The notes below the pieces were generated by a model that saw nothing but the letters and a program-made list of their open reading frames with translations, made no database searches and was not told the origin of the DNA. Shown here one piece after another: positions 11,730-13,670 of a stretch of DNA of 27,563 nt. Within the stretch, counting starts at the first letter, position 1, and every line of letters starts with the position of its first letter. Both the position numbers and the translations under genes were made by a program. Source of the DNA: a virus; IMG/VR virus record IMGVR_UViG_3300046455_000309, positions 1-27,563 of that record; one strand, given 5' to 3'.

Positions 11730-11975
11730 TCAGGCCGCGAGTGTTTTACCCACGTTGTTCCACATCAGTGTGGCCAAAACACTCCCCTCCCCCATGCCGA
11801 GGTCAGAGAGTGCGTGGGCGAGCTGGGCTGCGCGGTCGCCGATCTCCCGGAAGTTCCGGCGGTGCGGCTCCGCCTCGCCGGTCCAAGTCGTCACGGTCGA
11901 GTCACCGTGGATCGTCCGGCCGTGCTCAAGAATGCGGCTGATCGAGAGCGGTACATCTTGCATGGTGCCGAGCAC
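11730..11975 (-). pseudogene. 5' fragment of a host acyl-CoA synthetase gene carried next to attP
   Basis: The minus strand has a complete translation start, GGGAGG (11987-11982), six bases, then GTG at 11975. It encodes 81 residues: LGTMQDVPLSISRILEHGRT, then TTWTGEAEPHRRNFREIGDR, then AAQLAHALSDLG and LATLMWNN. This is the exact N-terminus of bacterial long/medium-chain acyl-CoA synthetases (AMP-binding family), which then continue 'aeHlEay.avp.mGavlHtlN'. Here it breaks after MWNN at the centre of the attP and runs into VGKTLAA and a stop. About 86% of the enzyme is missing. Frame, start and codon pattern are intact, so this looks maintained. Integration would join it to the rest of the host gene (see findings). 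Confidence 0.85.
11739..11784. other. attP: Phage attachment site (attP) for the serine integrase
   Basis: GAGTGTTTT (11739-11747) and AAAACACTC (11776-11784) are perfect inverted arms. The CCAC / GTGG pair just inside (11749-11752 and 11771-11774) adds to the symmetry. The 46-bp span with imperfect internal dyad fits the roughly 50-bp attP of large serine integrases. The symmetry axis lies at 11761/11762 (CA on the plus strand, TG on the minus strand), the predicted crossover dinucleotide. Homology to a host gene ends just beyond this axis. It lies about 270 bases from the integrase stop, a common position. Confidence 0.8.
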
Positions 11976-12021
11976 GGCAGACCTCCCGGGGTGCGGTCGC
12001 CACATCGCGACGCGTGCCCCG

Positions 12022-12051
12022 ATTCTGCGCACATACCGCGCGGTATGTCAC
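12022..12051 (-). promoter_or_regulatory. Promoter of the captured acyl-CoA synthetase 5' end
   Basis: Reading the minus strand, GTGACA (12051-12046) and CAGAAT (12027-12022) are 18 bases apart. The expected start of transcription is about 40 bases before the GTG at 11975. The -35 box touches the last base of the integrase stop codon. An 18-bp palindrome fills the spacer. Confidence 0.5.
12031..12048. promoter_or_regulatory. Perfect 18-bp palindrome, probable TetR-type operator
   Basis: ACATACCGCGCGGTATGT is a perfect palindrome lying between the -35 and -10 boxes of the minus-strand promoter, two bases after the integrase gene. 'ATACCG..CGGTAT' dyads are typical of TetR-family operators in actinobacterial fatty-acid genes. 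It is therefore likely the host's own control site, carried along with the gene fragment. Confidence 0.65.
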
Positions 12052-13670
12052 TACCTGGCGGTAACCGGTTTGGTCTGTTCCCACGGGTCCGGCTCCCACA
12101 TCGGGTGCACGGTGATCGCGACGTTCTCGTATCCGGTCCCGTTCCGAGTGAGGGCGACTCGGCGAATGACCTTGCGCAAGATCAGGTTGCGTTCGGCGAC
12201 GTTGATCGTGTCCCACTCCGCGATCAGTCCGACCATGAGCGGGTTGAACTCGGCACGGTCGGGCAACGGCTCGACCTCGGGGACGGTGTCGAGTACGGCT
12301 TTGGCGCGGTCGCGGTCCTTGCGGATGAGCGCTGCGGCCTCTTCGTACTCCCCTTCCTCGTAGTCGCCCGGGTTGGCCGCGTGGTCGGCGCGGAGTCTGG
12401 CGAGCGCGTTGCGGTACTTGTCGACCTCGGCCTGTGCGCGGGCACGGGCGCGCATGTTCTCGGCCTGGCGGTCGGGGCCGTCGGCGCGGTCGTCGCCGAG
12501 CTCGGTCGGGGGTGCGGCGTCGATGTCGTCGGCCACCTTGTCCGCGATCCATTTGCGAACCTCGGCCTCGACGGTGTGGCGCGGTACGAGTACGCCCTCG
12601 CACGCGGTCGCTCCGGACTTCGCACGGGCACTGCACCGGTAGGCGAACCCCTTGACGTTCTCGTCTCCGCGGCGGGCCGCGTTCAGGCTCGTGCCCTTGC
12701 GGCAACCTGCGCACTTGGGGAGTCCGGTGAGTTCATAGAGGCCCGTGCGGGACCGCGGCGCGGTGTCTCGCACCACCTTGCGTCGCTGCTGGTATGCCGT
12801 CCACAGGTCGAAGTCGATGAGCTCCTCTTGGGCGCCCTGGATATACACGCGGTTGCGGCATGATCCGTCGACCTTGCGGCATCGGCAGTCGGGATCGTGG
12901 ACGATGAGCAGGCCCGCGGGAAAGCCACTGTCCATGTACCGCGTGAGGGTCTCGGTGCTCCACAGACTGTTTTGGGTGGTGCGGTGTCCGGCGGAGTTGA
13001 GTCGGCCTGTGAGCGCGGTGAATCCGTCGCCTGCCACGTAGTCGCGGTACAGGTCGGCGACGATGGGGCCGAGAGTCTCCTCGGCCTCGTACCGTTCTTT
13101 CTGGAGTACGCCCGTGGCGGCGTCGTAGCGGCGGTGCCACAGGTAGCCCCACCGTTTGCGTCCCTGGGCGGGCAACTTGAGTTTGTAGCGGCGGTGGTCG
13201 TGCGTCTCGCGCCACTGCTCGCCGGCGCGGTCGCTCTCGAACGCCCCGAATTCGAGGATCATGCCGCGCTGGAATCGGCCGATGGCGGTCGAGGCGTCGA
13301 CCGGTTCCGTGGCGGATTCGAGCTCGCCGCCCGCCTGCTGCAACCGGGCGAGCCAGAATGCGTTACCGGTGCGGTCGCGGCCGAAGCGGGAGTATCGCCA
13401 GACGGCCACGCCTCGGGCCTCGCTCGCCTCGACGCGCTCGACGCACTTGGTGATCTTCCGGCGGAAGTGCCGGCCGGACACGTCGAGGTCTTCCACCCAT
13501 GCGACGATCCGGCGCCCGGTACGCCGGGCCCATTGGGCGATCGCGTCCCGTTGGAGCTCGGGACTGATCTTCTCCTCCTTCCACGTGCTCACGCGGATAT
13601 AAGCGATCCACGGCTCGCCGTCCTCGTCGGGCGGCGAGCCGTGGAATGTGGCTGGCAGTGGTGACGTCAC
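12051..13670 (-). CDS. int: Large serine integrase
   Basis: A 539-residue protein. The N-terminal catalytic domain (residues 21-160) has WIAYIRVSTWKEEKISPELQ with nucleophile Ser28, then VAVWRYSRFGRDR with the active-site arginines, and GMILEFGAFESDRAGEQW. A recombinase domain covers about 165-300. The zinc ribbon uses Cys320, Cys323, Cys346 and Cys357 (LPKCAGCRKG ... CSARAKSGATACEG). A long coiled coil follows at about 400-465. It inserts phage DNA by attP x attB recombination. An extra cysteine cluster (DCRCRKVDGSC, 262-271) is unusual. The ATG overlaps the stop of the upstream membrane-protein gene by 4 bp. attP lies directly downstream. Confidence 0.97.
   Translation of the reverse strand: MTSPLPATFHGSPPDEDGEPWIAYIRVSTWKEEKISPELQRDAIAQWARRTGRRIVAWVEDLDVSGRHFRRKITKCVERVEASEARGVAVWRYSRFGRDRTGNAFWLARLQQAGGELESATEPVDASTAIGRFQRGMILEFGAFESDRAGEQWRETHDHRRYKLKLPAQGRKRWGYLWHRRYDAATGVLQKERYEAEETLGPIVADLYRDYVAGDGFTALTGRLNSAGHRTTQNSLWSTETLTRYMDSGFPAGLLIVHDPDCRCRKVDGSCRNRVYIQGAQEELIDFDLWTAYQQRRKVVRDTAPRSRTGLYELTGLPKCAGCRKGTSLNAARRGDENVKGFAYRCSARAKSGATACEGVLVPRHTVEAEVRKWIADKVADDIDAAPPTELGDDRADGPDRQAENMRARARAQAEVDKYRNALARLRADHAANPGDYEEGEYEEAAALIRKDRDRAKAVLDTVPEVEPLPDRAEFNPLMVGLIAEWDTINVAERNLILRKVIRRVALTRNGTGYENVAITVHPMWEPDPWEQTKPVTAR

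Follow-up and report, generated by a model that had tools for sequence, protein, structure and literature searches.

Streptomyces phages with large serine integrases whose attP is joined to a putative promoter and the first 74 codons of the target acyl-CoA synthetase gene

Large serine integrases are generally viewed as interrupting the genes that they target and it is on this basis that they are used as genome-engineering tools. tRNA-gene-restoring phages and islands, like the phage described here, bring sequence that replaces the severed part of the gene, which is usually the 3' end of the RNA gene, restored through a tyrosine-integrase core. Integration in the 5' end of a protein gene, again as in this phage, is found in the SXT/R391 ICEs, where the target is prfC, and the work of Hochhut and Waldor in 1999 reportedly established that the element supplies a new prfC 5' end; these ICEs differ from the phage in having a tyrosine integrase. 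Phage R4 targets an acyl-CoA synthetase gene at a different place in the coding sequence, and the literature statement needed for a comparison with R4 was not found.

Islands and prophages in dusA insert by means of tyrosine integrases in the 5' part of the gene and replace its 5' end, with putative promoter elements present both before and after integration (PMC4482086). The phages considered here resemble them in that the 5' end of a protein gene is replaced by element-borne sequence. However, the dusA elements have a tyrosine integrase and the piece replaced is short, one beta strand being discussed (PMC4482086), whereas here a large serine integrase is accompanied by 74 or ~233 codons and by a promoter block that matches the host gene's own. 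The dnaJ2 prophages of Bifidobacterium are likewise actinobacterial temperate phages by which the target protein gene is reconstructed on integration (PMC6109161), but they use a tyrosine integrase and a 35-bp core at the 3' end of the gene and bring no promoter (PMC6109161). SP-beta in spsM and skin in sigK are elements that interrupt a protein gene, which is rebuilt on excision during development (PMC4191935, PMC5025042). The closest well-described relative is Streptomyces phage SV1, with an integrase 47% identical to the one reported below, and it is SV1, rather than R4, that is the relevant known relative. In SV1 attP lies just after int and attB is inside the acyl/aryl-CoA ligase gene SCO4383, and according to its authors the phage carries no compensating homologue or fragment of its target (PMC4068962). 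An SV1 integrating vector was unstable in S. venezuelae, from which toxicity was deduced, yet the SV1 lysogen was stable, an observation left unexplained (PMC4068962). The present phage is like SV1 in having attP next to int and attB inside a CoA-ligase-type gene, but unlike SV1 it carries a fragment of its target gene. No description of a large serine integrase element with such a 5'-end module was found in the open-access literature and, because this search was a limited one, its novelty is provisional.

The DNA analysed, referred to as the window, is a virus record of 27,563 bp with genes that include those for tail tape-measure, tail-spike, repressor, replication-initiation and single-stranded-DNA-binding proteins. 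Directly behind the stop codon of its integrase, and in the same direction, lies a stretch of host-like DNA terminating in attP. The features of this region, in window coordinates, are as follows.

12051..13670, minus strand: large serine integrase, 539 aa, with PF00239, PF07508 and Zn-ribbon domains
12022..12053, minus strand: captured host block, putatively a promoter, TAGTGACATACCGCGCGGTATGTGCGCAGAAT, the same block being present upstream of native host acyl-CoA synthetase (ACS) genes and phage modules
12031..12048, no strand: 18-bp palindrome ACATACCGCGCGGTATGT between the putative -35 and -10, conserved in phage and host copies
11982..11987, minus strand: Shine-Dalgarno sequence GGGAGG, placed 6 nt upstream of the GTG start and conserved among relatives and native genes
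11754..11975, minus strand: phage-borne first 74 codons of an ACS, VLGTMQDVPL...LATLMWNN, matching Streptomyces synthetases
11739..11784, no strand: attP core, an imperfect dyad, with the crossover dinucleotide TG at 11762-11761 (minus strand)
11730..11753, minus strand: phage P' part closing the free-phage frame (VGKTLAA stop), the source of stub tails at host-phage junctions
11680..11717, no strand: terminator-like inverted repeat with 14-nt arms, 93% complementary, between attP and the neighbouring small genes

Both the Resolvase (PF00239, E 5e-21) and Recombinase (PF07508) domains of the integrase score above the Pfam cut-offs, with the Zn-ribbon PF13408 slightly under its own. The enzyme thus has serine recombinase domains and is not a tyrosine integrase of the dusA/prfC type, and together with its cognate attP, 267 bp past int, it shows the domains and the attP layout of large serine integrases. 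Its TAG stop codon (12053-12051) is immediately followed by TGACATACC and lies inside the captured promoter block, of which the TAG forms a part in the window and most relatives. At one locus (L091, in genome G020) the integrase reading frame extends across the promoter and terminates within the ACS module.

The module contains a minus-strand ORF of 81 aa from GTG (11975-11973) to TGA (11732-11730), the first 74 residues of which end in MWNN. The match of the 74-residue fragment to Pfam PF00501 is weak (E 7.7e-5; 22.1 bits against a curated cut-off of 29.9 bits), that to the N-termini of Streptomyces synthetases is strong, and since Pfam alone is sub-threshold the ACS identity is assigned from the close match to Streptomyces proteins. 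The first-pass annotation had placed the N-terminal 74 codons of an ACS, with a Shine-Dalgarno sequence and start codon, on the integrase side of attP, and the ORF and the Streptomyces matches confirm this. The captured stretch proved to be longer than was then claimed: the segment from the integrase stop to the GTG (12053 to 11976) is host-like as well and holds the conserved promoter block and palindrome. A putative -35 (GTGACA, 12051-12046) and a putative -10 (CAGAAT, 12027-12022) are separated by an 18-nt spacer, and the block TAGTGACATACCGCnnGGTATGTGCGCAGAAT, with the palindrome between the putative hexamers, is common to native Streptomyces ACS genes and phage modules, a conservation that suggests a promoter. 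Genomes were searched with this pattern, allowing <=2 mismatches and using the reversed pattern as a control. There was one match per genome in those without this prophage (G010, G014), none with the reversed control, and two per lysogen (G020, G353), of which one lies at the stub and the other at the phage copy. The palindrome is probably an operator; it is degenerate in a few of the phage and host copies and is not strictly kept, because the native upstream sequence of G001 has lost it. A literature search by motif for its regulator gave nothing usable.

A 46-bp attP dyad had been proposed at 11739-11784 and its existence is borne out by arm pairing and a shuffle test: the arms (11739-11753 and 11770-11784, 15 nt each) are complementary at 13/15 positions, a strength that was reached by 1/300 mononucleotide shuffles of a 501-bp region. 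The core common to attP and attB is ATGTG, with TG at the axis, and the attB arms differ from those of attP. The axis (11762/11761) falls inside a Trp codon, the crossover being the TG in LM|WNN, and the integrase-proximal arm doubles as coding sequence for EGSVLATL of the enzyme. An attP arm of this kind is at once an integrase half-site and protein-coding sequence, and the host promoter travels along with it. The earlier statement that homology ends at the attP axis after MWNN needs correction: the axis is inside the Trp codon, the sequence common to related phages stops at ATGTG, and the window shares the NN codons too. When the attP region was compared with phage records by blastn at the DNA level, there was no match. 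Recombination was observed in the form of natural junctions.

Very probably, then, the segment consists of an attP and, fused to it, a functional 5' module captured from the phage's own integration-target gene. Recombination of attP with attB by the integrase would take place within Met-Trp, codons 72-73 of the fragment, in a chromosomal FadD-like ACS gene that is carried by nearly all Streptomyces. Because the module is on the integrase side, reads toward attP and is in phase with attB, a single crossover would swap the 5' ends. The native promoter and first codons would be left as a short stub closed by phage sequence, and the phage promoter, palindrome, Shine-Dalgarno sequence and first codons would form the new front of the gene, so that the lysogen would still have a full-length enzyme, now chimeric, driven by a promoter of the host type. 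Precise excision would give the native gene back.

The natural junctions agree with this scheme. When 393 Streptomyces genomes were searched with the integrase, 5 genomes of the MWNN type were found, and the target ACS gene was present in 59/61 Streptomyces genomes. An int-module pair followed by the rest of the host ACS gene occurs in S. sabulosicollis (L003), Streptomyces sp. 8L (L002/G001), G020, G353, G140 and G268. Both junctions are seen in the last five, and S. sabulosicollis is a sixth genome in which the restored junction alone was seen (restored ORF 550 aa). In each of the five lysogens the native 5' end breaks off at ATGTG, where the phage P' half closes it to leave a stub of 82-87 aa. 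At the other junction the 5' end brought by the phage continues in frame into the host 3' part, in an intact ORF of 549-586 aa. The restored ORFs are full-length and of the FadD/PRK06187 kind. The junctions are on one contig in G020, G353 and G268 (~38.6, ~40.6 and ~38.9 kb apart), and rejoining the flanks at the ATGTG core gives an intact native gene in 5/5 lysogens. It had been predicted that the host 3' part would be joined to the phage 5' part with the native 5' end left as a stub, and exactly this is seen in the five genomes; lysogens of the MWNN type are all integrated at the predicted codon and their junction frames are unbroken. As in target-restoring elements, the cut-off gene end is carried by the phage and an intact ORF stands beside a stub. 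Unlike the targets of SP-beta and skin, which are broken as long as the element is in place, the gene here is complete in the lysogen.

Seven other viral contigs and 7 bacterial genomes have this arrangement or a variant of it. The free-phage form (int, module, attP and closing tail) is represented by the window and by L009, L011, L012, L013, L014, L017 and L025. In most of these the homology with the host gene ends at ATGTG, after which phage sequence closes the frame, most often with a tail of ...KTLAA stop. In four provirus records (L010, L018, L021, L023) the last position is that of the int stop codon, the probable reason being that the 5' module or host gene behind int resembles host DNA, so that the module may be missed where proviruses are trimmed. 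In a partial sewage phage record (MW091528, Bacteriophage sp. 438212; L101) a stretch 34% identical to an ACS N-terminus lies near the end, at 31091-31303, where no gene is annotated. Close relatives can do without the module: G005 has an integrase 65% identical to that of the window, nested in the carrier clade, lacks the module and keeps an intact native ACS. The G005 contig C3 (37,780 bp; L097, L120, L121) has attP-like half-sites, AAGTGTTTTACC and GGTAAAACACTC, at its two ends, and the intact native ACS lies elsewhere.

Other relatives have other devices. The G037 integrase is 44% identical to that of the window and adjoins a mid-gene ACS integrase in the tree. G037 was considered as an MWNN-type lysogen and rejected, as its junctions place the crossover at FHV codons, about codon 233. 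The phage there carries a promoter and the whole 5' part to ~codon 233, ~77% identical to the native copy, and the restored gene encodes 551 aa. On one contig int and the 5' module are joined to the phage P' side, together with the native stub, and the restored gene is on another (L092, L093, L094), so G037 is a probable tandem prophage with its outer junctions on two contigs. In G168 and G331 a relative is integrated at the same mid-gene site as in G037, but int is not followed by a 5' module; of the host gene there remain a 3' remnant and a 5' stub of 279-285 aa. Directly behind the stub these prophages (L125, 1112-3609; L131, reverse strand) carry a complete spare ACS gene, the two being 87% identical. 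The start codon of the spare gene overlaps the stop codon of the stub and is preceded by a Shine-Dalgarno sequence, and its own attB-like site is altered, with FHCNSWG in place of FHVNAWG. This layout makes it likely that stub and spare gene are expressed from the host promoter as a translationally coupled pair. Related integrases are also found at the start of an exonuclease-III-like (xthA) gene (L004/L045, L005, L042). The attP arm of this type, seen also in the attP of L019, L020 and L100 (Vondra), reads as a Shine-Dalgarno sequence and then GGAGCATGTTTTG, with TTG as start and codons such as those for LYTVT or LFTLT after it, and these phages may bring a new Shine-Dalgarno sequence and start codon in a minimal form of the same trick. 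In relatives of the SV1 type (L049, L053, L099 (SV1)) a 4-coumarate-CoA-ligase-like gene is interrupted in its middle, and int is not followed by a 5' module.

Phylogenetic analysis, from which the attP-arm codons were removed, placed 12/14 phage modules in one clade with 99% UFBoot support. The modules of G020 and G037 fall outside it, and there were probably therefore at least 3 captures. The median pairwise dN/dS of 0.16, approximate because dS among the modules is near saturation, indicates purifying selection, and variable columns number 26, 23 and 55 of 59 at codon positions 1, 2 and 3. Specialised-transducing phages arise by imprecise excision with host DNA, and the module does resemble a captured flank beginning at a gene promoter. 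That one phage captured functionless flanking DNA by chance in this way is nonetheless hardly credible. Carriers of the module number 8 viral contigs and 6 lysogens of the MWNN type, their integrases being ~52-100% identical to that of the window, a distribution that refutes capture in a single isolate, and its own clade and purifying selection point to an old, maintained trait; chance capture may at most account for how the module first arose. It is very improbable, too, that the module is kept not for gene restoration but to provide homology for integration, excision or superinfection by way of RecA. Stub and phage modules do form direct repeats of ~290 bp that flank the prophage, but within a single lysogen the coding DNA of the two copies has an identity of only 64-77%, from which it also follows that the module is not a recent copy of the present host, and they diverge mostly at third codon positions, as expected under selection at the protein level.

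A larger but still small probability attaches to the view that the swap mainly re-wires the gene, by phage control or an altered enzyme, rather than merely restoring it. The phage N-terminus has 65-74% protein identity with that of the host in the 5 lysogens, and through the attP arm DDRVATL of the hosts becomes EGSVLGTL. However, the phage copy retains the host-type promoter and palindrome, and relatives restore the gene in different ways, one of which apparently relies on the host promoter. In principle the target of selection could be the 81-aa peptide of the free phage instead of the restored enzyme, and a function of that peptide or of the stub peptide, for example as a degron-tagged or dominant-negative fragment, would fit the conserved closed ORF with its Shine-Dalgarno sequence and the LAA ends in the window, L009, L011, L012, L013/L014, L025 and the G001 stub. 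The tails vary, with LTA, LPA, CGA, LGQ and LGA in others, which makes such a function very improbable; an ssrA-like degron on the stub was rejected as the LAA tail is not conserved. Restoration of the target gene thus remains the preferred reading, under which the chimera would be expressed and active and loss of ACS would be what selects for the module. A fitness cost is argued for by relatives that keep the gene by different routes and by its presence in 59 of those 61 genomes. It is fairly probable that one phage family has repeatedly and independently evolved devices that keep ACS alive in lysogens (a promoter with 74 codons, a promoter with ~233 codons in G037, a spare gene in G168 and G331), the loss of ACS being a major cost of lysogeny that drives the evolution of attP modules.

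These observations bear on the SV1 puzzle, in which an int/attP vector is unstable in S. venezuelae and the lysogen healthy. Related phages compensate target damage in cis, and minimal int/attP vectors may therefore lack the part that makes integration harmless. With the gene's putative on-switch and first 74 codons carried beside attP, each insertion of a phage of this Streptomyces family would rebuild a complete ACS gene.
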